Shown here piece by piece: positions 705-15,266 of a stretch of DNA of 25,451 nt. The stretch comes from a virus, in the IMG/VR virus record IMGVR_UViG_3300019458_000084, positions 1-25,451 of that record. One strand, given 5' to 3'. The notes beneath the pieces are model-generated. The model saw nothing but the letters and a program-made list of their open reading frames with translations. It did not search any database and was not told where the DNA came from. Both the position numbers and the translations under genes were made by a program. Position 1 is the first letter of the stretch; the number at the start of each line of letters is the position of its first letter.

Positions 705-714
705 GAGGTTTAGT

Positions 715-1383
715 GTGGCAGTCATTGAAGGTGGTGTATCTGGTTCCTTGGTGGAAGTGGGTGTTGGTGCCGCTGTGGCCCAGCACATCACCGCCAAGCC
801 TATTCCTCACGGCGCGCTAGGACACTACCGAAGTTCGGTACGGTTCGCGCTAGCCAACGCGCAGGCTGCCGCCAGTCGTCTGTGGGAGATCAGGAACACA
901 TCGACTAACCTTATTATCCCCACGCGCCTGGAGGTGCGCTGGACTCAGACCGCGGCGCACACGGCGGCCATCCTCGACGCCCTCCAGTTGTTCCGCCTGA
1001 CCGCTTTCACGGCCGTGGACACCACCAACACGGTGACCCCGACCGCCTCTGTGCGCCGCACATCGGGCATGGCAGCGGCGCCGGGCGGGGCGGCTATTAG
1101 ACACGTCACGGTGGCCGGAGTCGCGGCCGGGATGACCGGTGGCACGCTGACAAAGGACGGTGGCTTCGCCAGCATTATTGAGCAGTGGCTCCTTTTGGCA
1201 CAACCCACGGCGAGCACCATCGTGCCGATCATCAAGGAGATGCTGGACGATGTGAACGGGGCACACCCGTTCGTCCTCGCGCAGAACGAGGGCCTCGAGA
1301 TCGAGAACCAGGTCCTGCTAGGTGCGGCAGCAGGTTCGAGCGTTACAGTCGACTTCAGTTGGGCTGAGGTCACGGCTTTCTAA
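715..1383 (+). CDS. Beta-rich virion protein of unknown role
   Basis: This encodes 222 residues from GTG at 715, preceded by a strong ribosome binding site (AGGAGG at 703-708). An in-frame TTG at 661 would overlap the previous gene and lacks such a site. The protein opens VAVIEGGVSGSLVEVG and contains a GALGHYRSSV segment. It ends with a beta-rich stretch in which NEGLEIENQVLLGAAAGSSV is followed by a Trp-Ala-Glu turn. This layout resembles a widespread but uncharacterised group of siphovirus structural proteins encoded near fibre or head genes. I recognise it by pattern only. There is no signal peptide or membrane segment. It sits between collagen-like fibre genes, so it could be a decoration, fibre-anchoring or adhesion protein. 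The function is unknown. Confidence 0.75.
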   Translation: MAVIEGGVSGSLVEVGVGAAVAQHITAKPIPHGALGHYRSSVRFALANAQAAASRLWEIRNTSTNLIIPTRLEVRWTQTAAHTAAILDALQLFRLTAFTAVDTTNTVTPTASVRRTSGMAAAPGGAAIRHVTVAGVAAGMTGGTLTKDGGFASIIEQWLLLAQPTASTIVPIIKEMLDDVNGAHPFVLAQNEGLEIENQVLLGAAAGSSVTVDFSWAEVTAF

Positions 1384-1394
1384 GGAGGCAACAC

Positions 1395-1733
1395 ATGGCA
1401 GGTCAACCGTTTAAGGATGGTCCCGCGTTTCTCGTTACCACGTCGGAAGATGTCTACGTTCCCCCTGCGAATACGTACGCGCTGGTCCGTCACATCCACG
1501 TAGCCAACTCCAATGCAACCGCCCGTGCATTCTCGTTGTGGGTTGGCGCAACAGGCGCAGAGGTCAACGGCACTGAGCTGGCTGAGCTAAAGAACGTCCC
1601 CGGAAATGACTACGTGGACCTCTACTTCCCAGCCGGACTGAAGCTAACAGCCGCCGACTTCCTTGTCGGTCTGTCTTCGGTGGATGCGACCTCGCTGGCC
1701 ATCACCGTGACAGGCGAGCTGTACGCCGCGTAG
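1395..1733 (+). CDS. Small beta-rich virion protein, unknown function
   Basis: This encodes 112 residues from ATG at 1395, with AAGGAGG at 1383-1389 as ribosome binding site. The sequence alternates hydrophobic and small polar residues ([42 protein letters not shown]), as expected for a single beta-sandwich domain. It contains no Cys, membrane segment or known catalytic motif. It lies 11 bases after one virion protein and 10 bases before the long collagen-like fibre gene. This suggests a small accessory subunit, such as a fibre-associated or decoration protein. I do not recognise a named family. Confidence 0.75.
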
Positions 1734-1743
1734 TCGAGGTAAG

Positions 1744-4395
1744 GTGGAAGCCAAGCGCGTCAAGCTCAAAGTTGCGAAGGGCAAGCCCGGACTCCGCGGG
1801 CTGAAAGGTGACCGCGGGCCTATGGGCCCAGACGGTGCGAAGGGAGACCGGGGTGAGCCGGGACCCCGAGGTCCTGCTGGCCCCAGGGGACCTGAAGGTC
1901 CCATTGGGGACCGCGGGTGGTTGGGCCCTGAAGGACCTCGCGGCCCGGTTGGACCTGAGGGTCCGGCCGGTCCTGCGGGTCCCATCGGCAACACTGGTGA
2001 GAAAGGCCCGCGCGGTGGCCCAGGTGACCTGGGTCCTCAAGGTCCGCTCGGTGAGCTTGGACCAAGAGGTTCGCCCGGCCCAAAGGGTGAGGTAGGCGCA
2101 GCAGGTCCGCCAGGTGCACGTGGCCCGCAGGGTAGGACAGGGATCGGAGAGGTTGGTCCTGAGGGTCCCACCGGACCCCAAGGACCACCCGGTGCACGCG
2201 GCCAGCAAGGCCATGCAGGGGATCATGGCAAGGCAGGTCCAAGAGGTCTTGACGGCAAGGATGGCTCCACCGGGCCCAAGGGCCCGAAGGGCCACACCGG
2301 ACCTCGCGGGGTTCCTGGGCCGCAGGGCCCCGCTGGGCCAAAGGGTGATCCCGGCCCGACCGGCCCCGAAGGACCTCAGGGTGAGACCGGGCCACAGGGT
2401 GAACCAGGTCCGCGCGGGCTGGATGGCCGAACTGGCAAGAAGGGTGACCAAGGTGACCAGGGCCCACCCGGCGAGGATGGTGTTGGTGTCCCGCCCGGTG
2501 GTGATATCCTCCAGGTGCTGGCGAAGGTGTCAACCGAGGACTTCGACACCGACTGGCGTTACATCTCGACTGGCGGTGGAGGCGGGAGCGGCAGCTCGGA
2601 GCACCCGAACCTCGCGGCCCACGATGCCCTGGGCCTCGCTACCGACTCTGAACTGGTCGCACACGCCGCGACCCCCCACGGTGGTAGCCACCCCGACCTA
2701 GCCACCCACGACGCACTGGGCCTCGCCACGGACGCAGAGCTGGCGGCACACGAGGCGGCGGCTGATCCGCACCCAGGGTACCTCACCGAAGCCGAAGGCA
2801 ATGCCTCCTACGCTGACGTCTCCGAACCGATCGCGGCGGCCCACATCGCGGACACGACCGAGCCACACGACCACGGGCAGCTCGCTGGTCTGGCAGACGA
2901 CGACCACCCGCAGTACGCGACCAACGCTGAGTTCGACGACCACAGCGCCCGCCACGAAAATGGCGGCGCGGACGAGATCAGCATTGCCGGGTTGGACGGG
3001 ACGCCGGTTGAGCTTCAGGCGCACCTAGACGACACGACCGATGCGCATGACGCTAGTGCCATCTCGGTGGACTCAACGACCTTGGCTGGCGTTGGGACTG
3101 ACGTTCAGGCGGTGCTCGAGGAACTGGACGATGTTGACGCCGCGCTTCGGGCGATTGACTATCTGGTTGGTACGGCCACGGGTGAGTTAGGTGGAGAGAT
3201 TGCGGTAGGGACCACGCCCGGTGGAGAGCTGGGCGGCACTTGGGCATCACCGACCGTGGACGCCACACACTCCGGATCTTCCCACGCGGGTGTTGTATCA
3301 GCTCATGAAGCTGCATCGGACCCGCACACGGGATATAGGCTGGAATCTGCTGATCACAGCCACGCATCTGCTGGTCTCCAGGGTGGCACGATCGACCACG
3401 GTGCAGCTTTGACTGGGCTCACCGACGACGACCACACCCAGTACCTGAAGGAGAAAGCCAGCGGCGGCACGGCTGCGGAGACTCCTGAGCACACCCATGC
3501 ATCTACGGCGCAGGCCGGGACGGTCGACCACGGCGTACTCACCGGTCTCTCGGACGATGACCACCCACAATACAGCGGGCTTCCTGAGACGCAGATTTAC
3601 ACAGCCGACGCCACTTGGACAAAGCCAGCGGGGTGTAGGCTCGTGCTTGTCTGGTTGGTTGGCGGTGGCGGCGGAGGCGGCGGCGGCGCGAGAGGGCCTA
3701 CCAACGACTCTGGTGGTGGCGCAGGAGGAGGCGGTGCGTACACGCACTCTGTTCTTGTCGCGTCAGACTTGGCGGACACAGTTGCAGTCGTAGCAGGTAC
3801 CGGAGGCCCCGGGGGCCCCGGTGGCGCGACAAACTCAAGTAACGGCTCGAACGGTACAGCAGGGGAAGACTCGTCTTTTGGTACGCACGCCTTTGCCAAG
3901 GGAGGCAGCTTTGGCGACGGCGGCGGGACCACCCAAGGCGCAGGAGGACTTGGGGGTAGCCACACAAACTTCCTAGGGATCTGGGAACACCTCGGCCGAA
4001 GGGGGGGCGACGGCGATGACCTCGGTCCCGGCGGCGCAGGAGTTTCCGCTTCAGCTTCGGTTTTCGACGGGCTTGGCGGCGCTGGGGGAGGGGGCGGAGG
4101 TGGCAACTCTGGTGCCAACCGCGCCGGAGGCGACGGGGGAGCGTACTTCACCACAGCAGGCGGGTCAGGAGGACCTGCGGGCACCAACAACGGAGCCGAT
4201 GGCTCTACGTTCAAGGTTGGTAGACCCGGTTCAGGTGGCGGCGGTGGCGGTGGGAACACTGCTGGCGCAGGTGGGAATGGAGGAAACGGAGGACCCGGAG
4301 CAGGTGGAGGGGGCGGCGGCGCGTCCTCCTCTGGTCAAACAGCAGGTGAAGGCGGGTACGGAGGAAACGGCTATGTCATCGTCGTTGCCGTCTAA
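1744..4395 (+). CDS. Long collagen-like fibre with His-rich repeats and polyglycine C-terminal domain
   Basis: This encodes 883 residues from GTG at 1744, with a GAGGTAAG-like ribosome binding site immediately upstream. Residues ~1-12 are a basic head ([13 protein letters not shown]). Residues ~13-250 are almost unbroken Gly-X-Y triplets, with one two-residue step at GRTGIGEVG, indicating a collagen-like triple-helical shaft. [13 protein letters not shown] linker leads into residues ~285-615, which carry repeated HDALGLATD and GLxDDDHxQY units typical of trimeric phage fibres. From about residue 618 ([11 protein letters not shown]) comes a C-terminal domain with a short beta start (LVLVWLVGG) and then ~240 residues extremely rich in glycine. 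This resembles polyglycine-sandwich adhesins such as those of T4-like S16 phages. It is probably a host-binding or capsid-attached fibre. The position just before head genes is unusual for a tail fibre. Confidence 0.88.
1780..2495 (+). repeat. Collagen-like Gly-X-Y coding repeat
   Basis: About 235 codons keep glycine at every third position, giving a 9-base quasi-periodicity in the DNA (GGN at each first codon). Prolines and Lys/Arg/Glu/Asp dominate X and Y, with charged pairs such as KGD, RGE and KGE that stabilise triple helices. The minus strand is open across this region only because GGN/CCN codons avoid stops there. That is a by-product of composition, not a gene. Confidence 0.9.
2605..2760 (+). 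repeat. Two diverged tandem repeats in the fibre gene
   Basis: Two copies of about 28 codons occur in tandem. Each contains [12 protein letters not shown] followed by AHxA, and each copy starts with HPNLA or HPDLA. The DNA copies differ mostly at third codon positions, so the repeat is old and kept at protein level. They precede the GLxDDDHxQY repeats of the same fibre. Confidence 0.75.
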
Positions 4396-4409
4396 GGAGA
4401 GAGACTGAT

Positions 4410-5837
4410 ATGCCCTGGAGCATCTATTCAGATCACCCGGACTGTAGTGGCTACGCTGTCGTGCAAGATGACAGTGGCCGTATGGTTGGGTGTCATGAAA
4501 CGCGTGAAGAGGCGGAGGACCAAATAGCAGCGCTGTACGCTAGCGACGCTGACAAGGAGAAGTCAATGCGCCTGACCAAGACGTATGAGGTAGTGTCATT
4601 CAAGGCATTGCCGGATGAGGCCGGTGATGAGGGCCGATTCGAGGCGATTGTCTCGGTGTTTGGTAATGTAGACTTCCAAGGCGACCGGGTCATGCCCGGC
4701 GCGTTCAAAACGAGCATCGACCGGTGGCAGGAGTCCGGAGATCCAATCCCTGTCATCTGGTCACACGACTGGGGCAACCCACTTGCGCACATCGGATTCG
4801 TTGACCCTGGCGATGTTGAGGAAGTCGAGACAGAGGGCAAGGCCCGCAACAAAGTAGGTGGCCTGAAGGTCACCGGACAGATCGACTTGGACAACCCATT
4901 CGCCGCACAGGTGTACCGCTTGATGAAGGAGCGGCGCGTGAAGGAGTTCTCGTTTGCTTACGATGTGATTCGCGAGAGCCCGGGGCGTGACCGCGCCAAC
5001 GAGCTGCACGAGCTTGACCTCATCGAGGTCGGCCCTACGCTTAAGGGTGCAAACCCGTCCACCGAGCTGCTGGGTGTCAAGGAGCGACTTGAGGACGCCG
5101 CGGCCGAGGCGCGCGAGCAGGGGTATGACGCCGAGGGTGCAATCCGTGAACTAGCAAAGTACCAGATTGGTTATCGGGCAGGGGACGATCTCGTTCTGCC
5201 TGAGGGCATCGACGACCTGATGGACGCGATCGCACGTAAGGTGGAGATTCCCGAGCCTGTCCTTGAGCCAGAGAAGAAGAACGTGTACGCCGCGCTAGAG
5301 GGCACCCAAGAAGCACTACGCGAGGACATTGCGGATGAGTTGACCGCATGGGCGCATGGCTTCACGGGCTCCGTTGAGGCCTACATCAACGTCGTGGGTA
5401 CTTACTCAGATAGGGTAGTCGCTGAGTTGTACTTCGAGCATGAGGATACATACTGGGAGTTCAACTATGATGTGGACGAGGATGGCATGATCACGCTGTC
5501 GAATCCGCAAGAGGTTGATCCAGTCGTGAGCCTTGTGCCTGCGACCCCGGGGCAAACTTCTAGGTCAGTTAGTGCAAAGGCGGGCAGGGTGCTGAGTGCC
5601 AAGAGTGAGGCGCTCGTCCGCTCGATTGCTGATTCCGCTTCTGCGCTGCTGGCGCAGGTGGAGAAGGATAACGAGGAGAAGTCAGTGTCTGAATCCACGA
5701 CTATCGTGGCGACACCGGTTGTTGGGGTCACCGCTGCACCGGTCACCATTACAGAGACGCCGGATGAGCCGGACCCTGACGCGGAACTGAAGGCCGCGCT
5801 GGAGATGCTGGAGCTCGGGCAGAAGATCGGAGCCTAG
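4410..5837 (+). CDS. HK97-family prohead protease with N- and C-terminal extensions
   Basis: This encodes 475 residues. It is the serine protease that matures the procapsid by cleaving the capsid delta region. The core spans residues ~53-225. It shows the typical GRFEAIVSVFGNVDFQGD start, the catalytic His in VIWSHDW (H119), the catalytic Ser in VKEFSFAYDV (S181), and the closing LDLIEVGPTLKGAN motif. The first 52 residues (HPDCSGYAVVQDD, VGCHETREEAEDQIAAL) are a small separate module often seen before such proteases. An in-frame ATG at 4566 has its own strong ribosome binding site, so a 423-residue form is possible. Residues ~225-475 are an extension with a helical segment, a YWEFNYDVDEDGMITLS beta motif common in phage head proteins, and an acidic tail. 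The capsid gene lies downstream, as expected. Confidence 0.92.
   Translation: MPWSIYSDHPDCSGYAVVQDDSGRMVGCHETREEAEDQIAALYASDADKEKSMRLTKTYEVVSFKALPDEAGDEGRFEAIVSVFGNVDFQGDRVMPGAFKTSIDRWQESGDPIPVIWSHDWGNPLAHIGFVDPGDVEEVETEGKARNKVGGLKVTGQIDLDNPFAAQVYRLMKERRVKEFSFAYDVIRESPGRDRANELHELDLIEVGPTLKGANPSTELLGVKERLEDAAAEAREQGYDAEGAIRELAKYQIGYRAGDDLVLPEGIDDLMDAIARKVEIPEPVLEPEKKNVYAALEGTQEALREDIADELTAWAHGFTGSVEAYINVVGTYSDRVVAELYFEHEDTYWEFNYDVDEDGMITLSNPQEVDPVVSLVPATPGQTSRSVSAKAGRVLSAKSEALVRSIADSASALLAQVEKDNEEKSVSESTTIVATPVVGVTAAPVTITETPDEPDPDAELKAALEMLELGQKIGA
4554..4568 (+). promoter_or_regulatory. Internal ribosome binding site and alternative ATG in the protease gene
   Basis: AAGGAG at 4554-4559 lies six to seven bases before an in-frame ATG at 4566, exactly where the conserved protease core begins (MRLTKTYEVVSF). 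It is at least as strong as the site for the upstream ATG at 4410. Either start may be used, or both. Confidence 0.55.
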
Positions 5838-5838
5838 T

Positions 5839-6465
5839 GTGCACATTTGCGACACAGCGGCTGACTGGATCACCGAGGCTGAAATCGAGGCGTTCCTAGG
5901 CGAGTCGATTGACGCTGCATTGGCAACCTTCCTGATCGAGACGACCCAATCCCTGATCCGGGAGTACACCGGCCAGTGTATCACCGAGGTCGAAGATGAC
6001 ATTGAGTTCGTAGATGGAACGGGCCGTGACGCCTTCCGTTTGCGGCAGCGCCCGGTCACCGAGATTGCGGAGCTGCTAGAGGACGGCACTGATACGCCAG
6101 CTGGAACATACCCGGATCATGACTGGATGTTCGACCAGGACACGGGCGTTGTGTTCCGCGAGGCCGGGAAATGGCGTCCAGGCCGGGGAAACATCAAGGT
6201 GACCTACACGCATGGCTGGGCTGCCGCGGACGTGCCCGCGGTCCTGGTGGCCGTTAGTCTGAATGTCGCCCGGCGTCTGTTCAACACATACGGCACGATT
6301 GCCGTGACCGGTACGGTGCAGTCAGAGACTATCGGGGCATACTCATACACCTTGGCTGTAACAGCCGATCAGATGGCAGGCGTGGTCGTCGGGCTAGTGC
6401 CCTCGGAGAAGGCAGTCCTTTCCCGCTTCCGCGTCGCTGGACCGGAAGCAGGTAGCAAGTCGTAA
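5839..6465 (+). CDS. Head-tail connector, gp6-like
   Basis: This encodes 208 residues from GTG at 5839, one base after the protease stop, so it is probably translationally coupled. The N-terminal half is helical (ADWITEAEIEAFLG, ALATFLIETTQSLIREYTG). It is followed by a beta segment carrying DTGVVFREAGKWRPGRGNIKVTYTHGW, and then DVPAVLVAVSLNVARRLFN. This helix-beta-helix plan, especially the (R/K)GNIxVTYTHGW motif and the alanine/valine helix after it, is typical of connector proteins that form a ring under the portal. In most HK97-like phages this gene follows the capsid gene; here it precedes it, with a tRNA between them. The C-terminal ~40 residues (SYTLAVTADQMAG) match the usual exposed tail of the family. 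Confidence 0.85.
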   Translation: MHICDTAADWITEAEIEAFLGESIDAALATFLIETTQSLIREYTGQCITEVEDDIEFVDGTGRDAFRLRQRPVTEIAELLEDGTDTPAGTYPDHDWMFDQDTGVVFREAGKWRPGRGNIKVTYTHGWAAADVPAVLVAVSLNVARRLFNTYGTIAVTGTVQSETIGAYSYTLAVTADQMAGVVVGLVPSEKAVLSRFRVAGPEAGSKS

Positions 6466-6469
6466 CATG

Positions 6470-6542
6470 TGCGGCGTAGAGCAGATGGCAGCTCGCCAGT
6501 CTCATTCACTGGAAGTCGTGGGTTCGAGTCCCACCGCCGCGA
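6470..6542 (+). tRNA. tRNA with anticodon CAT (Met-type), atypical anticodon loop
   Basis: The 73 bases fold as a full cloverleaf. The acceptor is TGCGGCG/CGCCGCG with a T-G first pair; the D arm is GAGC/GCTC with GG in its loop. The anticodon stem is CCAGT/ACTGG around loop CTCATTC, with the anticodon at 6503-6505. There is a five-base variable region, a T arm GTGGG/CCCAC with loop TTCGAGT, and discriminator A. CCA is not encoded. The anticodon CAT fits Met, or Ile if C34 is lysidinylated. Position 37 is T, although this position is almost always a purine in functional tRNAs. It is in the late operon, four bases after the connector stop, so it would be released from the polycistronic transcript. 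Confidence 0.85.
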
Positions 6543-6629
6543 CGATGGCCCCAAACTCCTGTGGGGATCACTGCGAGGGGAGCAACCACCAGATTGCCGA
6601 CCAAGGGCAGCTCTGCAAGGAGAGGCGCC
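6543..6629 (+). other. Untranslated spacer between tRNA and capsid leader
   Basis: This spacer holds a small hairpin (CCCCA 6549-6553 pairing with TGGGG 6562-6566) and a GCAG/CTGC mini-stem near 6607-6616. It ends with AAGGAGAGG at 6617-6625, a strong ribosome binding site. I see no promoter resembling -10/-35 boxes. Confidence 0.4.
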
Positions 6630-6737
6630 ATGAAGACCCGTACGCTCCGGGTGATGAGCGCGAAAGGTGAAGCAAATGAAGTCAGCAAAGGACTTCCTAG
6701 AGGTGGAGATCGACCGCCACATCAAGGCGGCTCGTGA
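6630..6737 (+). CDS. Possible 35-residue leader peptide overlapping the capsid start
   Basis: An ATG at 6630, with a near-ideal ribosome binding site (AAGGAGAGG, 6617-6625), opens a 35-codon frame. It begins MKTRTLRVMSAKGEANEVSK and ends at TGA 6735-6737, about 60 bases inside the capsid gene in another frame. The capsid's own site (AAAGGTGA) is weaker. It could be a translated leader that couples ribosomes to the capsid start, or a chance frame. The peptide has no recognisable domain and its second half is simply the overlapped capsid DNA read in another frame. Confidence 0.35.
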   Translation: MKTRTLRVMSAKGEANEVSKGLPRGGDRPPHQGGS

Positions 6738-7887
6738 GATCACCCGTTCGGCCGAGGACAGGAACGAGCAGTTGTCCGAGGACGAGCGCAAGCAAGTCGA
6801 GGAGCACGTGGCGCAGGCTACGTCCCTCAAGGCCCGCGTGGCCGAGCTGCAGGAGGGTGAAGACATGAAGGCCCGCCTGGACGCGCTGTCCGGAGCGACC
6901 AAAACGTCAACGCCTTCCGTGGCACCTCGCGCGCGGACCATTGGTGACCAGTTCATCGCTTCCGAGGCGTATCAGGCCCTCAAGGCCCGTGGTCTCGGTG
7001 GTAGTTGGACGACTGGTCCCGTCGAGCTGAAGGGGACCTACAACCGTGGGTTCAAGACCGTCGGTGATGACATCGTCGATGAGGTCTCCGCGGACGAGGA
7101 GCTGCTCGGCGCGCCGCAGGTGGTTCCGGGCATTGTCCCGATCTTCACCGACGTCGCACCGTACAAGCTCGTTGTGGCCGACCTTTTCGGGCAGGGCATC
7201 GCGACGACCAACTCGATTGTCTTCCTCCGGGAGTCGATCGTGGATGACGACGCGTATATCGTGGCTGAAAAGGCTTCGAAGCCGTCTTCATACATCGAGT
7301 TCGACAAGACCACGACTGCGGTGGAGAAACTTGCCACGCACCTCGCGATCTCCGACGAGATGATGGAGGATGCCCCACAGGTCGCCTCGTACATCAACTC
7401 GCGCCTGGCGCTGTTCGTTCGCAGGGCTGAGGAGGCTTACCTCCTTACCAAGCTGGACGACAATGTTAGCCAGACGTCGAGCGGTGGCTCGAACGACTTC
7501 GATGACATCTACTTCGGCATGACGGACGTCAGGGTCAACGGCGGGCTCGAGCCCGACGCGCTCCTGATTCACCCGACAGATGATGCCGCACTGGTGACGT
7601 CGAAGGACGCTGTTGATGGTCAGTACTTCAGTGGTGGGCCTTATGCACCCCCGATCCAGAACCCTTGGGGTCTGCGTAAGATCATCACCTCGGCTCTGCC
7701 ATTGAACACAGCAATCGTCGGTGCGTTCCGCGAAGGTGCCACAGTGTGGCGCCGGGGCGGCGTGACCGTCGAGGCGAGTAACTCGCACTCCGACTTCTTC
7801 CTCAAGAACTTGACCGCGCTGCGTGCCGAGGAGCGCCTTGCGCTTACAGTTTATCGGCCGCTCGCCTTCACCTATATCACGGTGTAG
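6676..7887 (+). CDS. Major capsid protein, HK97 fold
   Basis: This encodes 403 residues from ATG at 6676 (MKSAKDFLEVEIDRH), with AAAGGTGA at 6663-6670. A GTG at 6667 would add three residues. Residues ~1-75 are a charged coiled-coil resembling the delta scaffold domain removed by the prohead protease. A linker TSTPSVAPRART near residues 76-87 is a plausible cleavage zone. The rest has HK97-fold hallmarks: the E-loop/P-domain region VPGIVPIFTDVAPYKLVVADLF, a spine helix around TTAVEKLATHLAISDEMMED, NSRLALFVRRAEEAYLL, and a C-terminal LTALRAEERLALTVYRPLAF strand. No separate scaffold gene is needed. The gene follows the protease and connector and is the likely expression peak of the operon. Confidence 0.92.
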   Translation: MKSAKDFLEVEIDRHIKAAREITRSAEDRNEQLSEDERKQVEEHVAQATSLKARVAELQEGEDMKARLDALSGATKTSTPSVAPRARTIGDQFIASEAYQALKARGLGGSWTTGPVELKGTYNRGFKTVGDDIVDEVSADEELLGAPQVVPGIVPIFTDVAPYKLVVADLFGQGIATTNSIVFLRESIVDDDAYIVAEKASKPSSYIEFDKTTTAVEKLATHLAISDEMMEDAPQVASYINSRLALFVRRAEEAYLLTKLDDNVSQTSSGGSNDFDDIYFGMTDVRVNGGLEPDALLIHPTDDAALVTSKDAVDGQYFSGGPYAPPIQNPWGLRKIITSALPLNTAIVGAFREGATVWRRGGVTVEASNSHSDFFLKNLTALRAEERLALTVYRPLAFTYITV

Positions 7888-7923
7888 GTAGCAGGTTCTG
7901 ACTGAAGAAGTCAAAACTGATCT

Positions 7924-7961
7924 GGGTTCCTGCTCCGTACCTTTCTGCGGAGCAGGAACCC
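7924..7961 (+). terminator. Perfect 14-bp hairpin after the capsid gene
   Basis: GGGTTCCTGCTCCG (7924-7937) pairs exactly with CGGAGCAGGAACCC (7948-7961) around a 10-base loop. No T-run follows, and the next ribosome binding site (AAAGGAG) begins six bases later. It is therefore more likely a partial terminator, RNA-end stabiliser or processing site that sets capsid expression above the downstream cluster than a full stop. Confidence 0.6.
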
Positions 7962-7976
7962 ACCAGAAAGGAGATC

Positions 7977-8207
7977 ATGAAGACCTACTGCTGGAGGTGT
8001 CCGAACTGCGGGTGGACCACCGAGTCCTCCAATCGCGACACCCCACCCGACTGTGAGGTGTGCTGGGACGCCTTCCCCTGCGGCGGGCCACGCTTGTACA
8101 TGACCCGTGACTACCGAGCCGAAGCCCCGAACATTGACAAGGGCGCATTCTACGGTTACGGCATGCGCAGAAAATATGTCAGCGGCAACGTACCGGACCC
8201 GTGGTAG
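7977..8207 (+). CDS. Zinc-ribbon microprotein heading the glycan cluster
   Basis: This encodes 76 residues from ATG at 7977, with AAAGGAG at 7967-7973. Two CxxC knuckles, CPNC (residues 8-11) and CEVC (26-29), form a zinc ribbon, and there are extra cysteines at 5 and 35. The remainder is aromatic and basic (RLYMTRDYRAE, GAFYGYGMRRKYV) without a known motif. Small zinc ribbons in phages bind nucleic acid or proteins; the exact role is unknown. It is the first gene after the post-capsid hairpin and ends two bases before the likely start of the first glycosyltransferase, so it shares that transcript. Confidence 0.8.
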   Translation: MKTYCWRCPNCGWTTESSNRDTPPDCEVCWDAFPCGGPRLYMTRDYRAEAPNIDKGAFYGYGMRRKYVSGNVPDPW

Positions 8208-8209
8208 TA

Positions 8210-9196
8210 ATGCGCATCCTCGCTCATCTTCACAAGTTTCTACCACACCATAGGGGCGGAGCGGAGCACCACGCACTGGAGGTTCTGCGCTACTTTGCTG
8301 ACCAGGGTCATGGGGTGGTTGCTGCGGTGCGGACCGTGCCGGGTGACTACACGATCCACGGCATTCGGGTCATGTCAACACGAGACCGCCTGGACGAGCT
8401 GCAGGCACTGTACCGCTGGTGCGACGTTGCTATCACCCATCTCGATGTAACGCGCGGCGCGCGCCTCGAGGCCGCCAAAGCAGGCAAGCCGCTCGTCCAC
8501 CTTGTTCACAATGAGCGCACCCTCCGCGCTCAGGGTGTGAAGCGTGATGGCGCGGCGTTGATTGCCTACAACTCGGAGTGGCTTCGGCGACAGGTGGAGG
8601 ACGTCGAAGGTGACAAGCTGTTCGCGGACCGGTCCATGGTAGTCCGCCCGCGGGTACGGTGCAAGGACTACGAGGTTACCAGCTCGCGCGAGTGTCTGAC
8701 TCTGATCAACCTGTCTGAGAACAAGGGTGCTGACACGTTCTGGGAGCTGGCTCGGCTGATGCCAGAGCGCCGTTTCCTTGGAGTAGAGGGTTCATACACT
8801 GAGCCTGTCAGCAGAGACCGCGGGCAGATCATGCCGCCAGACCTGCCGAACGTCGAGGTGGTCCCGACCGGGGACGTCGTTCCCGTGTACGCCCGGACGG
8901 ACGTGCTGCTGATGCCCTCACACTATGAGTCGTGGGGACGCACCGCTCTCGAGGCCGCGGCGTCCGCTATCCCGGTGATCGCGCACCCGACGCCAGGGCT
9001 GATGGAGGCGATGGGAGCCTCCGCGCTGTACGCGCCGCGCTTGGTTCCCGAGGCCTGGGTGAACTGGCTCCTCCGGCTCGACGAACCGGGGTTCCGCCAG
9101 ATGATGTCCGACGCCGCATGGGAGCACGCACGTCTGCAGGAGCGGGTGGCCCGAGATGATCTGGAAGCACTGAGCGCGCGGTTGGAGGAGCTGTGA
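8210..9196 (+). CDS. Glycosyltransferase, GT4-like (GT-B fold)
   Basis: This encodes 328 residues from ATG at 8210, two bases after the previous stop. A GTG at 8201 would add three residues and overlap that gene. The N-terminus, MRILAHLHKFLPHHRGGAEH, is the classic GT4 opening with a Gly-Gly-Ala-Glu loop at ~16-19. The C-terminal domain has LTLINLSENKGADTF and DVLLMPSHYESWG, followed by RTALEAAASAIPVIA. This last part carries the E-x7-E type nucleotide-sugar motif near residues 237-258. It should transfer a sugar from a nucleotide donor. No membrane segment is visible, so it acts in the cytoplasm. Neighbours are five further glycan enzymes, and the virion is the likely target by context. Donor and acceptor cannot be read from the sequence. 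Confidence 0.88.
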   Translation: MRILAHLHKFLPHHRGGAEHHALEVLRYFADQGHGVVAAVRTVPGDYTIHGIRVMSTRDRLDELQALYRWCDVAITHLDVTRGARLEAAKAGKPLVHLVHNERTLRAQGVKRDGAALIAYNSEWLRRQVEDVEGDKLFADRSMVVRPRVRCKDYEVTSSRECLTLINLSENKGADTFWELARLMPERRFLGVEGSYTEPVSRDRGQIMPPDLPNVEVVPTGDVVPVYARTDVLLMPSHYESWGRTALEAAASAIPVIAHPTPGLMEAMGASALYAPRLVPEAWVNWLLRLDEPGFRQMMSDAAWEHARLQERVARDDLEALSARLEEL

Positions 9197-10161
9197 GGAT
9201 TGCGTATCTAGGGAACTTCTCTGTTCCCTACTGTACTGAGGTTCACGTTGCAGCTTCGCTAGAGGCCCTAGGCCACCAGGTGACCCGGATTCAGGAGGGG
9301 CAAGTGCGAACAGCGGTCGTGCCCAGGATGTCAGAGCGCCATGACTGCTTCCTTTGGACACAAACGTACTCTCTAGCAGAGAGAGGAGGCACCCGGTCCG
9401 AGCGCCACCGGATGCTGGAGCAGATTCGAAAGACGATGCCTACCGTTGGGTTCCACCTAGATCGGTGGTGGGGCCTGGGCCGCGAGCACCAGATTCAAGA
9501 GGAGCCTTTTTTCCGGGTTGACTACCTGTTCACCGCCGACGGCGGACACCAGGACGAGTGGGAGCGCGCTGGTGTGAACCACCTGTGGAGCCCGCCTGCT
9601 GTGTACCACGCCGAGGCAGTGGACGTTGATCCCGACCCTCGGCTAGACGTGGACGTGGTGTTCGTGGGGGCCTGGCGGGAGTACGGGCACAAGGAGTGGT
9701 GGCCCTACCGGCAAGAGCTGATCACGCGCCTGGAGGGTAGGTACGGAGATCGCTTCACCTGCTGGCCACGCGCGGGCGAGCCCGCGGTGCGGGGGCTCGA
9801 CCTTAATCGCCTGTACGCTTCGGCGAAAGTGGTAGTTGGGGACTCATGTTTGGCCGGTGCGGCTCACTGCTACTTCTCGGATCGTGTGCCCGAGACCTTG
9901 GGTCGAGGAGGCTTCCTGATCCACCCGCAGGTCAAAGGTCTTGGGGTGATTCACCCCGAACTGCCGACCTACCCACTTGGTGATTGGAATGCCCTGTTTG
10001 ATCTAATCGATTGGTACATTGCAAACCCTGCGCAGAGGGAAGAACTGCGTCGGCGGCTGGCTAGCGATGTCCGCGCAAACCACACGTACATGAACCGGAT
10101 GCAGTACGTTATTGGTGTTATAGGAGGAGCAGATGCCGCGCGGTATCTATGTGCGCACTGA
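9193..10161 (+). CDS. Glycosyltransferase, CgeB/YkvP-like (GT-B)
   Basis: This encodes 322 residues from GTG at 9193, overlapping the previous stop (GTGA) with GGAGGAG just upstream. The N-terminus, MRIAYLGNFSVPYCTEVHVA, is a Rossmann start. The middle carries VDYLFTADGGHQDEWERAG and DVVFVGAWREYG. Near residue 232 is RVPETLGRGGFLIHPQVKGL, the C-terminal donor-site motif of the spore-coat CgeB-type glycosyltransferase family. The final section (ALFDLIDWYIANPAQREELRR) is the usual closing helix. The last 29 bases overlap the start of a homing endonuclease gene. The ending GGADAARYLCAH is therefore encoded by DNA that also serves as that gene's ribosome binding site and first codons, and may be a replaced terminus. 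Confidence 0.82.
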   Translation: MRIAYLGNFSVPYCTEVHVAASLEALGHQVTRIQEGQVRTAVVPRMSERHDCFLWTQTYSLAERGGTRSERHRMLEQIRKTMPTVGFHLDRWWGLGREHQIQEEPFFRVDYLFTADGGHQDEWERAGVNHLWSPPAVYHAEAVDVDPDPRLDVDVVFVGAWREYGHKEWWPYRQELITRLEGRYGDRFTCWPRAGEPAVRGLDLNRLYASAKVVVGDSCLAGAAHCYFSDRVPETLGRGGFLIHPQVKGLGVIHPELPTYPLGDWNALFDLIDWYIANPAQREELRRRLASDVRANHTYMNRMQYVIGVIGGADAARYLCAH

Positions 10162-10723
10162 AGCAGCAAAGGCTGCCAATGCAGCGGGACAAAGACGCCG
10201 GTTTACTAACCCGGACGAGCGAGCAAGGCACTCGGCCCGGATCAAGAAATGGGCAGCCGACCCAATGAACAAGAATGTCCTGTCGAAAGCAAACCGCGAA
10301 GTCTGGGCCCGCCCCGGTCATCGCGAGAAGATGTCACAGGCTCACCGTGGGCAAACCCACCAGCGGCACACAACGGAGTCACGTGCGCGGATATCTGCAT
10401 CCGTCCGTAAACAATGGGCACGAGGGAATCTTCCCGGGCGCCGACGGGCAGGTACACGACCTGAACAGGTTATGGCTGCTCTGTTGGAATGGGCAGGGGT
10501 GCGGTTCGAGGCGCAGCGCCAGTTCGGGCGGTACGTCGTCGACTTCTACCTACCTGACTCGCGGGCAGTGATCGAGGTTGATGGCGAGTACTGGCACAAG
10601 CGGAACGAACAGCGCAATCAGGGTTACCAAGCAAGGCGAGACCAGTTTCTACTTGATACTGGCGTAGTGTCCATTCATCATGTAACTGATGGGCAGCTGG
10701 TTTCTGCTGGGTGGATGTCTTGA
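10133..10723 (+). CDS. Free-standing homing endonuclease: NUMOD repeats plus Vsr-like (EDxHD) nuclease
   Basis: This encodes 196 residues from ATG at 10133, with TAGGAGGAG at 10121-10129. Residues 1-98 are basic and carry NUMOD3-like repeats (SKANREVWARPGHREKMSQA, ESRARISASVRKQWA), which bind DNA in phage homing enzymes. Residues ~108-175 form a Vsr/PD-(D/E)xK-like fold. They carry E111 (RPEQ), D137 (YVVDFYLPD), E148 and D150 (AVIEVDGEYWH), H155, and D170 (RRDQFLLDTG). This pattern matches the EDxHD homing endonuclease group. It overlaps the upstream glycosyltransferase by 29 bases and the downstream one by 13. Its insertion between two glycan genes, with no intron or intein visible, marks it as a selfish mobile gene. 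A DUF559-like non-homing nuclease is the alternative. Confidence 0.85.
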   Translation: MPRGIYVRTEAAKAANAAGQRRRFTNPDERARHSARIKKWAADPMNKNVLSKANREVWARPGHREKMSQAHRGQTHQRHTTESRARISASVRKQWARGNLPGRRRAGTRPEQVMAALLEWAGVRFEAQRQFGRYVVDFYLPDSRAVIEVDGEYWHKRNEQRNQGYQARRDQFLLDTGVVSIHHVTDGQLVSAGWMS

Positions 10724-12285
10724 TCCAGGTGGTGTGGTACGGGGACCGCCCCGATGTGATCAGCCGTGGGTACTGGGACCAAGGATTCCTTGAGGAGTTC
10801 TTCGCTAGGCATCTGTGGAAACCGCCTGGGCCAACCGAGTTCAAGCACATGGCGGCTGGCGAAGCAGACGGCCGCGGTGCGGTGGTCGTGGTCCCCGCGC
10901 GTTGGCACGCTGGCCGCGAGGCCGAGGTGCGGGAGTTCGCCGACGGGTTGGCCTGGTGCCTGTTGGTCCTGACCGGCGACGAGGAGAACGCGTTCGATCG
11001 CTCCGGCTGGGACCCGTTGGGCGAACGTACGCGGGTGTGGGTCCAGACCCCGAGGCCAGACACCGCGCGCGAGGGCGAGCGGTACATCGGCGACATGTGT
11101 CCGCCTGAGGCGCGGCAGCTCGGACTCATGGACTGGACGAAGGATCGCGACTGGTTCTTCGCTGGCCAGATAAACACCCTCGACCGCTCGGAGCTCCAGA
11201 TGGCCATGGGGGAGAGCGAGCACTTCACCGGCACGAACACCTTTGGGTCAGGCCTGCCTTACGCCGAGTACCTGAGTGAGATGGCCCGCTCTAAAGTGGC
11301 ACCCTGTCCCGGCGGGCCGTTCACCCCGGACACCTTTAGGCTGTTCGAGGCCCTCGAAGCCGGGTGCGCCCCGGTCGTTAGAGATGACCCCTACTGGGCA
11401 GTTCTGGGCGACCCGCCGCTAGTGAAGACGGCGGACTGGAGGCGTGGGATCAAACAGGCTTTGCGCGACTGGCCTGATTCAGCGACCCGGGCATCGTGTT
11501 GGTACCAGCGCTACAAGCGCGAGATCGCGCGGCGATTCTACGCCGACCTGTTCGAACTGTCGGGTGAGCCTCGCCCAGAGGCCAGGATGACGGTGCTGAT
11601 GCCGACGTCCAGCGCGCCCGCTGACCCTTCAACCGAGATCATCGAGGAGACCGTCTCATCGCTGCCATCCGGGGTGGAGGTCATCATGATGATGGACGGT
11701 CTACACTTCAGGCACCAACACCGTTTCGCACAGTACGCCGAGTACCGACGGCGCGTGGCTTGGCTGTGTGAGCACCGCTGGACGAATGTGCTGCCGATCT
11801 TCTTCGAGGAACACTTGCACCAAGCCGAGATGACTCGACGTGCGCTGGGCGAGGTACACACGCCACAGATCCTGTTTGTAGAACACGACACGCCGTTAGT
11901 TGGTGAGGTTCCGTGGGCGCAGATGTCCGAAGTTGTTGCATCGGGCGAGGCCGATGTGATCCGGTTGCACCACGAGGCGCACATCTTGCCGGAGCACGAG
12001 CATCTCATGCGTGGTGGGGTTGAGGAAGTCGCGGGTGTGCCCATGCGCCGGACGGCGCAGTGGAGCCAGCGTCCGCACCTGGCCAGCGCTGCCTTTTACC
12101 GTCGTGTGATAGCCCAGCATTTCACGCCTGCGTCGCGGACCTTCATCGAGGACGTGGTGCACAGCCCGGCGCAAGACCCTGCCTGCGACTGGAAACTGTG
12201 GATCTATCACCCACCGGGCGACATGAAACGGAGCCGCCACCTAGATGCTAGGGAAGGCGAACCTAAGGTGCCGATGGTCCCATGA
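10711..12285 (+). CDS. Two-domain glycosyltransferase (exostosin-like plus GT-A-like)
   Basis: This encodes 524 residues from GTG at 10711, overlapping the endonuclease gene. A TTG at 10720 is the alternative start. Residues ~1-285 resemble exostosin/GT-B proteins. They include DWFFAGQINTLDRSELQMAM, YAEYLSEMARSKVAPCPGG and, near residues 209-223, DTFRLFEALEAGCAPVV, the usual donor-binding end. From about residue 291 a second domain starts (RMTVLMPTSSAPADPSTEII, VEVIMMMDG) and runs to a FVEHDTPL motif near 389. The acid-rich turn there could be the metal-binding motif of a GT-A enzyme. The C-terminus has FIEDVVHSPAQDPACDWKLW, similar to phage or cellular GT-A-like proteins. Bifunctional sugar transfer is inferred. 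No membrane segment is present. Confidence 0.78.
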   Translation: MDVLIQVVWYGDRPDVISRGYWDQGFLEEFFARHLWKPPGPTEFKHMAAGEADGRGAVVVVPARWHAGREAEVREFADGLAWCLLVLTGDEENAFDRSGWDPLGERTRVWVQTPRPDTAREGERYIGDMCPPEARQLGLMDWTKDRDWFFAGQINTLDRSELQMAMGESEHFTGTNTFGSGLPYAEYLSEMARSKVAPCPGGPFTPDTFRLFEALEAGCAPVVRDDPYWAVLGDPPLVKTADWRRGIKQALRDWPDSATRASCWYQRYKREIARRFYADLFELSGEPRPEARMTVLMPTSSAPADPSTEIIEETVSSLPSGVEVIMMMDGLHFRHQHRFAQYAEYRRRVAWLCEHRWTNVLPIFFEEHLHQAEMTRRALGEVHTPQILFVEHDTPLVGEVPWAQMSEVVASGEADVIRLHHEAHILPEHEHLMRGGVEEVAGVPMRRTAQWSQRPHLASAAFYRRVIAQHFTPASRTFIEDVVHSPAQDPACDWKLWIYHPPGDMKRSRHLDAREGEPKVPMVP

Positions 12286-12299
12286 CCCAGGAGAATATC

Positions 12300-13010
12300 A
12301 TGAGGAGCACCAGAATCTACCGGGGCGACGTCCCGGACCTGATCCTGCCCGAGCACCTGGCGGCGTGGGACGTGCACGACTACTGGGAGCGTGAGGTCTA
12401 CGACAGCATGGCCGCCCTGCGCGAGGAGGGTGAGGTCCTGTGGGTGATCGGGGCGGAGCACGGGTACATGGCCGCGCTCTGGGCCCGGCTGTTCGGGGGG
12501 CAGACCGTGCTGATCGAACCGTCACCACCGTTCTGGAGGAACATCCGTCTGACGTGGGAGGCGAATGGCCTGCCAACCCCGAACGCGACGATCCAAGCGT
12601 TTCTATCAGATACCCCTGCGGGTAGTGTGACTGTTTGTGAGTCGGGCTGGCCGGACTCTGCGGCTGGGGACGAGGAATGCCCTGCACAGGAGTACCGTTA
12701 CCTCTGGCAAGAATCTCACGCCCAAGCGATCGCCGCCACGACAGTAGATGCGCTTGTGCAGGTGGGGGTTCCTGCTCCGACAGCATTGACCTGCGACACT
12801 GAGGGTGCTGAGGTCCGCATCCTTCCGGGTGCCCAGGCCACCCTTGCCGAGCATGACGTCAAATGCTGGCTGAGCCTGCACCCGGACCTGATCGAGCGTG
12901 ACTACCCGGGCCACTCGGACCAGGAAGTGCATGATCTTATGGGGGAACTAGGGTACGACGGAGACCTTCTCTCTACCGACCACGAACAGCACTGGCTTTA
13001 CGTGCCGTGA
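12300..13010 (+). CDS. FkbM-family SAM-dependent methyltransferase
   Basis: This encodes 236 residues from ATG at 12300, with CAGGAGA at 12288-12294. An ATG at 12282 overlapping the previous stop would add six residues but has a weaker site. Motif I is VLWVIGAEHGYMA (residues 46-58), with Ala-Glu where most members have Asp-Gly. Motif II is TVLIEPSP with acidic E73. The FkbM signature LTCDTEGAEVRILPGA (163-178) is followed by WLSLHPD. FkbM enzymes usually O-methylate sugars or polyketides. Within a set of glycosyltransferases it most likely methylates the phage-made glycan, perhaps capping it. It is cytoplasmic. Its stop overlaps the next GTG (GTGA), so the two are coupled. Confidence 0.85.
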   Translation: MRSTRIYRGDVPDLILPEHLAAWDVHDYWEREVYDSMAALREEGEVLWVIGAEHGYMAALWARLFGGQTVLIEPSPPFWRNIRLTWEANGLPTPNATIQAFLSDTPAGSVTVCESGWPDSAAGDEECPAQEYRYLWQESHAQAIAATTVDALVQVGVPAPTALTCDTEGAEVRILPGAQATLAEHDVKCWLSLHPDLIERDYPGHSDQEVHDLMGELGYDGDLLSTDHEQHWLYVP

Positions 13011-14020
13011 AACTGGGGCTGATCGTCCGTGTGGACAACCGCGGTCTGGGCATCCAGTCGTGGGAGTTGTACCGCCACCTTCGGCCCTACCGCACAGTGG
13101 CCGTCAGAATGTCTGGCGTACCTGGGCACGACCAGGGGCGTGAGTTTCTAGACCGTTTCCCCGACGCTCTGCACGTGAACTACGTCGGCGGGTACGGACA
13201 CGGCAAACTTGAGCCGTATCGCGAGGTCCGTCAGCACCTAAGTGTCTGCGACATCCTGTTGACTGTAGAGACCCCATACGACTTTCGCTTGCTCGAGGAC
13301 TTGCCGAGGACGGTCGTTGCGGGAAACCGCGAGTTCCTGAACTGGGTCGTCGACCCTGACTTGCTACTTCCGACGCTGTTCGTCGCGCCATCCACCTGGC
13401 GGCTAGCAGACTGGCCAGAGAACACCGTGTACCTACCACACCCGGTCGACCGAGAGCGCCTGCCGTTCCGAGAGCGGTCGGACATCCAGGCGTTCCTGCA
13501 TCTCGCTGCGGAAGCGTTCCGGGACAGAGCCGGGACTGATCTTGTGTCTGAGGCTGTGAAGCACGTGCGCCCGCAGGTTAGGATCACAGTCAAGGCTCAG
13601 CGCCAGATCAACCGCCGTCGTCGCGTTGCCTGGTTGGTGGAGGACGTAGACGACTACTGGAAGGTCTACCAGGGGTTCGATGTTCTGGTTGCGCCGCGTC
13701 GTTACGGTGGCCAAAGCCTGCCAGTGAACGAAGCCCTAAGCCTCGGCATGCCGGTGATCGCACTGGATCGGGAACCCGAGCGTTCCATGCTGCCGCTCGA
13801 GTCACTGGTTCCAGCGAACCGGGCGCGAGACCTCAAAGTGTCCGGCGGGGTTGTCGGGCTGTGGGACGCGAATCCTGTTGACTTAGCACAAAGGATTGCA
13901 CAGTTCGCATCTGACCCCGAGCTCGTTCGGCGCCTGAGCCGTGACGCTGACGCACGCGCATCCGAGCTGTCCTGGGAGCGCTTGCTGCCACGATGGCAGA
14001 AGCTTCTTGAGGAGGTCTGA
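13007..14020 (+). CDS. Glycosyltransferase, GT4-like
   Basis: This encodes 337 residues from GTG at 13007, overlapping the methyltransferase stop. The N-terminus MKLGLIVRVDNRGLGIQSWE is a Rossmann start with the acceptor-side Gly loop. There are CDILLTVETPYDFRLL in the middle, an APSTWRLADWPENTVYLPHP segment near the domain linker, and an arginine-rich patch (KAQRQINRRRRVAWLV). The donor-binding motif is DVLVAPRRYGGQSLPVNEAL, followed by SLGMPVIALD, around residues 226-254. The closing helix is ERLLPRWQKLLEEV. The combination is standard for retaining GT4 enzymes. Donor and acceptor are unknown. It overlaps the next gene by one base (TGATG). Confidence 0.85.
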   Translation: MKLGLIVRVDNRGLGIQSWELYRHLRPYRTVAVRMSGVPGHDQGREFLDRFPDALHVNYVGGYGHGKLEPYREVRQHLSVCDILLTVETPYDFRLLEDLPRTVVAGNREFLNWVVDPDLLLPTLFVAPSTWRLADWPENTVYLPHPVDRERLPFRERSDIQAFLHLAAEAFRDRAGTDLVSEAVKHVRPQVRITVKAQRQINRRRRVAWLVEDVDDYWKVYQGFDVLVAPRRYGGQSLPVNEALSLGMPVIALDREPERSMLPLESLVPANRARDLKVSGGVVGLWDANPVDLAQRIAQFASDPELVRRLSRDADARASELSWERLLPRWQKLLEEV

Positions 14021-14943
14021 TGGTAGACTGCCTGGCCAGCGAGTCTCACTACTGGGATCACCTGAAGCCCGTGTGGGACGCGCTGCCGCCGCACCTGCGA
14101 GGGACGGTTCTCACTGAATCCGAGTCTATTGGCTTCGGCTCACTTACGCTGATCGCATCAGAGCGAGACCGAAGCAGCGCGGTGCTACGACCGGTGGTCC
14201 GCATGGAGCACGGGATTGGCATGAGTTACGCAGGGGTCGACCACGGCTCCTGGCCTGGTGGTCGCTACCAGACTAACGTCATTGCCTTCCTGTCTCCGAA
14301 CCGGCCATGCGCCTCGCGGTGGATGGGGGCATACCCCGGCGCCAAGGTGCACATCGTGGGCGTTCCGCGGATGGACGCCTGGAAGAGGCTCGGCAAGAAA
14401 GAGATGCCGGATAGACCGTTGGTGGTCTTCAGCTGGCACTGGGACTGCCAGATCATCCCCGAGGCGGGATGGGCGTGGCCTGAGTTCAAGGGCGCAGTGC
14501 GGAGGCTCGCGCGTCGATCTGACATCGAGGTGGCTGTACACTGCCACCCGTTCGCGCGGGGCAGCATCAAACCTTGGGCAAGCTTGGCGGGGATACGATT
14601 CATTGAGTCATTCAATGAGGTGTTGGCTACGGCAGACGTCTACGCTGCTGACACCAGCTCCACGCTGTACGAGTTCGCGGCCCTGGACCGCCCGGTGATC
14701 GTGATGAACAGCAGGAAGTACCGCCGTGAAGTCCGTCACGGCATCCGGTTCTGGGACTGGAGCACCGTCGGCCTGAATGTGTGGCCCGCAGATGACCTAT
14801 CGGCCGCCGTGGACCTCGCGCTCGAGGACCGGTTCGAGCAGCGGACCGGGCGCTGGGGCGCCGTGCGGTCCTTGTTCCCACACCTCGGCACCTCCACTGA
14901 GCGTGCCGCTCAACTCATTGAGGAGATTGCGTGTCGTTCCTAG
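14020..14943 (+). CDS. CDP-glycerol glycerophosphotransferase-like enzyme
   Basis: This encodes 307 residues from ATG at 14020, with GAGGAGG at 14009-14015. It has the motif order of the TagB/TagF group. There is an N-terminal MEHGIGMSYAG loop (residues ~62-72, the family HG), then HIVGVPRMDAW and LVVFSWHWD. AVHCHPFARG near 174 is the family HP motif. ADTSSTLYEFAALDRPVIVM (~210-229) is the family D-x-S-S ... P-V motif. Related enzymes move glycerol-phosphate or sugars to wall teichoic acids or polysaccharides. Here it sits at the end of a virion-linked glycan cluster and could add a polyol phosphate or sugar to the glycan. It may act as an ordinary GT-B glycosyltransferase; the substrate is inference. 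The next gene starts inside its last 13 bases. Confidence 0.75.
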   Translation: MVDCLASESHYWDHLKPVWDALPPHLRGTVLTESESIGFGSLTLIASERDRSSAVLRPVVRMEHGIGMSYAGVDHGSWPGGRYQTNVIAFLSPNRPCASRWMGAYPGAKVHIVGVPRMDAWKRLGKKEMPDRPLVVFSWHWDCQIIPEAGWAWPEFKGAVRRLARRSDIEVAVHCHPFARGSIKPWASLAGIRFIESFNEVLATADVYAADTSSTLYEFAALDRPVIVMNSRKYRREVRHGIRFWDWSTVGLNVWPADDLSAAVDLALEDRFEQRTGRWGAVRSLFPHLGTSTERAAQLIEEIACRS

Positions 14944-15266
14944 CACTGCTCATTCATCAAGTGGATGTCAGCAACCCGACGTTCCCGGGAGGTGTCAACC
15001 GGTACGGTGACCCAGATGAGACCCCCACGGTCACGGCTGGTGTACGCTGCCGAGTGCAACCTGCGGGCGGCGATGAGCGGCTGGACAACAGAGATACTCG
15101 GACTACACGCATGAGAGTGTTCTTCTTGCCCAGCGCGCCGATCACCGCGCTGTCCACACTAACGTGGCTCGGCCGGACGCTGCGCGTGAGCGCGGAGCCC
15201 GAGCCTTACTACGACAGTGGCGCGTTACACCACTACGAGGTGGATACAGAAGAGGTGCTTGGATAA
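14931..15266 (+). CDS. Head closure / head-tail joining protein
   Basis: This encodes 111 residues from GTG at 14931, with TGAGGAG at 14919-14925, overlapping the preceding gene. The sequence has the plan of SPP1 gp16-like stoppers. It starts with an early loop (QVDVSNPTFPGGVNRYGDPD), followed by TVTAGVRCRVQPAGGDERLDN. Next comes an Arg/Thr stretch, then VFFLPSAPITALSTLTWLGR, RVSAEPEPYYDSGALHHYEV and a short acidic tail. Members close the portal channel after packaging. It begins the neck module and overlaps the next gene (TAATG), matching the usual order of head closure, tail completion, tail terminator. Confidence 0.8.
   Translation: MSFLALLIHQVDVSNPTFPGGVNRYGDPDETPTVTAGVRCRVQPAGGDERLDNRDTRTTRMRVFFLPSAPITALSTLTWLGRTLRVSAEPEPYYDSGALHHYEVDTEEVLG

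Follow-up and report, generated by a model that had tools for sequence, protein, structure and literature searches.

Glycosylation of virion proteins by phage-encoded enzymes has been described in mycobacteriophages, whose capsid and tail-tube proteins carry glycans on their C termini (Freeman 2023, as cited in PMC12619734). A gene set inviting comparison with this system lies in the linear IMG/VR virus record IMGVR_UViG_3300019458_000084, analysed over 25,451 bases (the window, meaning the whole of this stretch). There, six enzymes fill positions 8201-14943: four glycosyltransferases (GTs), termed GT_A to GT_D, together with an FkbM methyltransferase and GPT, a phosphotransferase of TagF-like type (PF04464). 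As in the mycobacteriophages, where capsid and tail-tube subunits are the glycan carriers, the GTs are encoded by the phage itself; unlike there, six enzymes share one operon segment, the methyltransferase and the TagF-like phosphotransferase among them, and a virion acceptor is a candidate one. The mycobacteriophage link is taken as a precedent only. We consider the building of a multi-step glycan on virion proteins to be the most likely role of the set, with a probability of about 0.55.

Several other phages encode related enzymes in different arrangements. The double GT4 enzyme gp20 of Streptomyces phage TurkishDelight is 33% identical to GT_A and its gene lies between those for the capsid and the major tail protein, but it is one fused gene with no FkbM or GPT gene annotated nearby, and the capsid is of the phrog_777 type. 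In Streptomyces phages Yara, Wentworth and their relatives, a GT_B homologue (~33% identity) is found near an FkbM gene, directly 3′ of a tail gene; this pair, however, stands at the end of the tail/lysis block and not after the capsid gene, and GT_C, GT_D and GPT were not seen in the annotation. The Yara tail gene in question (gp27; locus L005, 8063-11944), directly 5′ of the GT_B-type gene, encodes a large protein with BppL_N and glycerophosphodiesterase domains. Finally, gene 32 of virus Rctr41k, from a DAMO enrichment, encodes a protein annotated as hypothetical that is 34% identical to GPT, two genes past the capsid/protease gene, yet no GT is annotated next to it.

The gene set and its recurrence in other phages

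All six enzymes were recovered by family matches between the capsid and head-closure genes (Table 1), as a preliminary description of this DNA had stated, although its list omitted a seventh gene within the set, coding for a homing-type endonuclease. The GTGA and TGATG overlaps that it reported are present, but they do not account for every junction. In gene order, the junctions are GTGA, ATGA (between GT_C and FkbM), GTGA and TGATG, while the endonuclease gene overlaps GT_B by 29 bases and GT_C by 13. At its 3′ end, GPT overlaps the head-closure gene by 13 bases, from which we infer translational coupling. The endonuclease gene has a GC content at third codon positions (GC3) of 0.58 versus 0.68-0.78 in the adjoining genes, which fits a mobile insertion; it is probably a separate one, and could help to spread the cassette among phages.

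Among the GTs, GT_A contains the E-x7-E motif (ESWGRTALE), while GT_D has no match to it, its first Glu being replaced by Gly as in most of its relatives (RYGGxxLPxxEA in an alignment of seven homologues). GT_B shares 31-47% identity with its homologues in module-bearing phages. The two-domain structure suggested earlier for GT_C is plausible, but only the N half gave a match, a weak exostosin/RXYLT1-like one (2e-4, under cutoff), and the C half had none in Pfam. RXYLT1 is a xylosyltransferase acting on ribitol phosphate, and the likeness of GT_C to it may serve as a lead only. Homologues of GT_C are found in loci L117 (36% identity) and L116 (39%), and tblastn of GT_C against phages gave no match. 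The AlphaFold model of GT_C, made from three sequences, is unusable (pLDDT 36), and its sequence matches in the PDB, to chemokines, were rejected as chance (E >= 0.04).

The same families were found together in many other phages, and for this reason the set is not a chance assembly. The searches with GT_A and GPT were pattern-based and their locus counts are lower bounds: GT_A was found in 54 viral loci, and GPT in 62. Single-protein viral scans with GPT, GT_C and GT_D gave no matches, and for GPT an alignment-based search was needed. Across 84,980 species genomes, GPT was present at just five loci, three of them within phage-like regions, and the family is phage-enriched. A recognised structural gene (terminase, portal, head or tail) lies on the same strand within eight genes upstream in 53 of 67 GPT loci. 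Likewise, in 26 of the 36 GT_A records tested, a PF05065 capsid gene closely precedes GT_A on the same strand; once near-copies were removed, GT_A stood one to three genes 3′ of a capsid gene at 8 of 11 loci, where 3.1 would be expected. Genes of the relatives were called by a simple codon-bias caller, and several family labels come from profiles built in this analysis.

The enzymes are also inherited together, as members of what is predicted to be one pathway. GT_B, FkbM, GT_C, GT_D and GPT are all present in L116 and L117, where the neighbouring phrog_777 capsid and tail genes are unrelated to the capsid family of the window; at 11 of 11 loci, GPT is one of the two genes after GT_D; GT_B and FkbM are fused in L103 and L110, and lie near each other in the cultured phage Yara. 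In L010 and L049, a methyltransferase, GT_A and GPT are flanked by terminase on one side and portal on the other. At the corresponding position, other cassettes add a PIG-L deacetylase, rhamnosyltransferase, GDP-mannose dehydratase, DegT aminotransferase, hexapeptide transferase or TagD/HldE-type nucleotidyltransferase. The proposal that the enzymes form one pathway has thus gained from the comparison: they recur together, are sometimes fused, and in several head-gene lineages are associated with virion-assembly operons. On a maximum-likelihood tree of 39 GPT proteins, the three head-gene types, which are coarse lineage classes, need 10 changes where the minimum is 2, and well-supported branches alone force several. 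Such a pattern means that cassettes moved between phages, landing again in particle-building operons.

Alternatively, loose accessory genes with no pathway in common could have gathered behind the capsid gene, at a shared insertion hotspot. The homing-type endonuclease within the set would suit such an origin, as would the many relatives with single GTs alone and the different genes held at the post-capsid position by different phages. Set against the constant GT_D-GPT pairing, the GT_B-FkbM fusions and the return of the five-gene set in other lineages, we find this origin very improbable.

In L097 (5652-13413), a long cassette extends from the adaptor/head-closure genes to the tail genes and holds glycosyltransferases, a nucleotidyltransferase, GPT, an epimerase, a hexapeptide transferase and a DegT aminotransferase. 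A large phage group (L011, L020, L045 and similar loci) has a lone GT_A-type gene between the capsid and connector genes, in some cases preceded by FkbM.

The TagF-like enzyme

GPT shares with the CDP-polyol phosphotransferases TagF and TarL (PF04464) the GT-B fold, the HG and HP motifs and a D-x-x-S segment. It differs from them in belonging to a family of short, single-domain phage proteins (~307 aa) with subfamily motifs of their own (EHGxG and YRRxVxHGxRFW) and in an N half of little similarity, and its activity is putative. In an alignment of 39 sequences, H64-G65, H140-W141, H174-x-H176-P177, D211, S214 and R243 are invariant; the HP motif aligns to TarL and the HG motif to a cellular PF04464 protein. 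The canonical TagF-type motif is HGTxxK, and its Lys is missing in GPT. Two relatives score under the PF04464 cutoff of 22.1 (L010, 17.4; L053, 20.5).

The AlphaFold model of GPT is confident (pLDDT 95.3). The structure-based search foreseen in the preliminary description returned TagF as the best PDB match (3l7j, E 1.6e-9, TM 0.59-0.67), but UDP-GlcNAc 2-epimerases scored equally; sequence profiles rank PF04464, the TagF-like capsule polymerase Cps3D and TarL above the epimerases. A viral fold search with GPT returned generic GTs only.

In regard to the donor, no gene for CDP-donor synthesis stands beside GPT in the window. A TagD/HldE-type, cytidylyltransferase-like nucleotidyltransferase is found near GPT in the loci of six relatives and in none of the loci lacking GPT, with scores below the TagD equivalog cutoff. 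A whole-record search for cytidylyltransferases gave hits in 2 of 46 relatives, both adjoining GPT. Judging by family and neighbourhood, a CDP-polyol donor is plausible for GPT. Likewise, the TagF-like fold, the conserved His motifs and the cytidylyltransferase near GPT in six relatives make a polyol-phosphate cap plausible. A wider proposal, which we offer tentatively and hold to be doubtful, is that teichoic-acid-like coats are found on many uncultured tailed phages. In such a coat, the methylated multi-sugar glycan of capsid or tail proteins would end in a polyol phosphate added by a phage-specific TagF-type enzyme, the cassettes being swapped between unrelated phages and some bringing their own cytidylyltransferase.

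Virion, host surface or DNA as possible acceptor

In the scheme that we infer, a tailed phage would express the set late in infection, as a mobile cassette for glycan synthesis, and the cytoplasmic enzymes would build a short methylated glycan during particle assembly. The acceptor would be one or more virion proteins, with the major capsid protein as the first candidate and the tail tube or a collagen-like fibre as alternatives. GT_A and GT_B, both GT4/GT-B enzymes, could begin and extend the chain on the protein, GT_C could add further sugars, the FkbM enzyme could O-methylate one of them, and GT_D would attach the sugar on which GPT then acts. GPT would complete the chain, plausibly with a polyol phosphate taken from a CDP donor of host or phage origin, and the benefit might be shielding or altered adsorption. 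A virion acceptor is favoured because the enzymes are embedded in head/tail operons across lineages, and because of the predicted coupling of GPT to head closure together with the mycobacteriophage precedent. It is also favoured because, in 46 relatives, markers of lipid-linked surface glycans (GtrA, PF04138, 0/46; Bac_transf, 0/46) and thymidylate-synthase-type base hydroxymethylases (PF00303, 0/46) are absent.

The preliminary description had argued from the lack of membrane segments. None was indeed found in the six enzymes (highest 19-residue Kyte-Doolittle mean 1.16), but this is weak evidence for a virion acceptor, because enzymes of the TagF class work on lipid-linked chains peripherally, without a membrane segment. 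A further possibility is that a glycan of the host wall or membrane, such as teichoic acid or capsule, is the target during infection, its change serving for example to block superinfection or the adsorption of progeny to debris. The fold and profile of GPT do resemble those of wall teichoic acid polymerases, and the glycerophosphodiesterase domain in the Yara tail protein adjoining GT_B indicates that the phage may meet teichoic-type polymers. We nevertheless judge host-envelope modification improbable, given the late operon position, the missing GtrA-type flippase and lipid-linked initiating transferase, and the near absence of the GPT family from cellular genomes, where few members occur in cell-like contexts (L123, L124). 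A membrane-anchored Gtr-type host-wall system was rejected on the same two markers, absent from 46 relatives, and on the lack of membrane segments.

Several observations weigh against a virion acceptor or its supporting evidence. The capsid protein has no obvious Ser/Thr-rich tail, many of the matched records are near-copies and fragments, and the epimerases tie with TagF in the fold search. A TET/JBP dioxygenase is present in 3 of 46 relatives, all three with GT_B/GT_D/GPT. In L092, a ParB-TET-TAGT segment (1460-3655; TAGT, TET-associated glycosyltransferase) precedes the module by a few genes and a C5-methyltransferase lies elsewhere, so DNA may be the acceptor in that phage. Furthermore, DNA-glycan clusters near structural genes, with teichoic-acid-like enzymes acting on DNA, have reportedly been described by Pyle and colleagues in 2024.

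These last points suit the possibility that the GTs, the methyltransferase and the TagF-like enzyme decorate hydroxymethylated phage bases, as in TET-dependent 5hmC glycosylation or in phage SP-15, and so block restriction and Cas nucleases; a site beside packaging and head genes would then mean modification shortly before packaging. TET/TAGT clusters and SP-15 genes 146-155 are likewise GT clusters, and the SP-15 cluster, to which a role in DNA hypermodification has been assigned (PMC5977210), includes a CDP-glycerol glycerophosphotransferase-like gene among its GTs. Known clusters of this kind, however, carry base hydroxymethylases or TET oxidases, and none was detected in most relatives or among the window genes scanned, the window being a late-region fragment only. 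TET was found in 3 of 8 records with GT_B/GT_D/GPT versus 0 of 38 others; since two of these TET records are near-identical, they amount to at most two independent cases. C5-methylase was found in 7 of 46 relatives. No TET was detected in 43 of 46 relatives and no thymidylate-synthase-type hydroxymethylase in any, many of these records being fragments, and the TET scans covered few lineages. Six other TET records, all short contigs, lack GPT, and GT_A or GPT stands directly 3′ of the capsid gene in phages without DNA-modification genes. The L103 record carries TET, ADDT, hydroxylase and kinase genes ~30 kb from the module, but these genes form a distinct operon that brings its own transferase, kinase and tailoring enzymes, which suggests two separate systems there. 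A TET-ADDT-aspartyl hydroxylase-P-loop kinase cluster lies at L131 6702-10942, in a phage that carries the GT_B/GT_D/GPT module as well. Taken together, we regard DNA as an acceptor worth keeping in view, if rather unlikely, and virion proteins as the preferred one.

Surroundings of the gene set and implications

All genes of the window lie on the + strand, in the order collagen-like fibres, prohead protease, adaptor, tRNA-Met, HK97-type major capsid, glycan set, head closure, neck, tail terminator, tail tube, tape measure and minor tail genes; terminase and portal were not seen among them. Megablast of the entire window against a phage collection (50,697 records) gave no near match. The closest characterised capsids, from Arthrobacter phages, are ~33% identical, and an actinobacterial host is a guess from sequence. 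The hairpin directly 3′ of the capsid gene has a minimum free energy (MFE) of -44.7 kcal/mol over 7888-7980 (z = -6.1), with none of 200 shuffles equally stable; it could protect the capsid message or reduce expression of the downstream genes. The Cys-rich open reading frame (ORF) behind it had no match in a Pfam scan. A Shine-Dalgarno-like GAGGAG stretch (14920-14925) lies ahead of the head-closure gene, and the collagen-like fibre contains two runs totalling 78 Gly-X-Y triplets, with Thr at Y in eight.

The upstream part of the window shows an unusual order (3-6465), with the prohead protease directly downstream of the collagen-like fibre genes and the adaptor upstream of the capsid. The tRNA-Met (CAT, 6470-6543) is placed within the head operon, with the head-tail adaptor gene on one side and the capsid gene on the other. 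The prohead protease domain is preceded by an N-terminal extension (4410-4560; DHPDCSGYAVVQDDSGRMVGCHETREEAEDQIAAL), and a similar stretch forms a separate ORF in L105 (888-1052).

Table 1. Features of the glycan gene set and its surroundings in the window
Feature	Coordinates	Strand	Evidence
Collagen-like tail fibre, alternative acceptor candidate	1744..4395	+	phrog_5073/6320 ~3e-44
Major capsid protein, HK97 fold; possible acceptor	6667..7887	+	PF05065 1.1e-25, phrog_10 4e-46
Very stable RNA hairpin, directly 3′ of capsid gene, before glycan genes	7909..7976	+	MFE, shuffles
76-codon Cys-rich (zinc-ribbon-like) ORF, between capsid gene and GT_A	7977..8207	+	translation
GT_A, GT4-type glycosyltransferase	8201..9196 (ATG at 8210 more probable start)	+	PF13692 2.3e-14, phrog_26352 1.6e-65
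GT_B, glycosyltransferase	9193..10161	+	PF13524 6.2e-11, phrog_28745 7e-44
Homing-type endonuclease, NUMOD3 + DUF559/Vsr-like, between GT_B and GT_C	10133..10723	+	NUMOD3 4e-4, DUF559 1e-8, Vsr 8e-7
GT_C, large enzyme, probably two GT domains	10711..12285	+	PF03016 2e-4 and PF24785 8e-4, residues 1-290, under cutoff
FkbM-family S-adenosylmethionine (SAM) methyltransferase	12282..13010	+	TIGR01444 47.0 bits (cutoff 37.7), PF05050 26.0 bits (cutoff 22.7)
GT_D, GT4-type glycosyltransferase	13007..14020	+	PF13692 3.8e-7
GPT, TagF/TarL-like GT-B phosphotransferase, phage-enriched family	14020..14943	+	PF04464 34.0 bits (cutoff 22.1)
Head closure Hc1	14931..15266	+	phrog_501 5.5e-12

On the gene content of these cassettes, many phages probably attach an elaborate sugar chain to the particles that they build; decoration of their DNA is less likely, and so is modification of the host surface. 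A virion acceptor would mean that phages coat their own particles with glycans made in several steps, with consequences for adsorption, decoy binding, immune recognition and stability, and it would account for GTs so frequently following capsid genes. A DNA acceptor would bring a TagF-type enzyme into hypermodification chemistry. In both cases, the GPT family offers a tractable handle, being phage-enriched, with a confident fold, and a marker of these cassettes in metagenomes. Since the cultured Streptomyces phages TurkishDelight and Yara carry related enzymes, the question of the acceptor can be tested directly.

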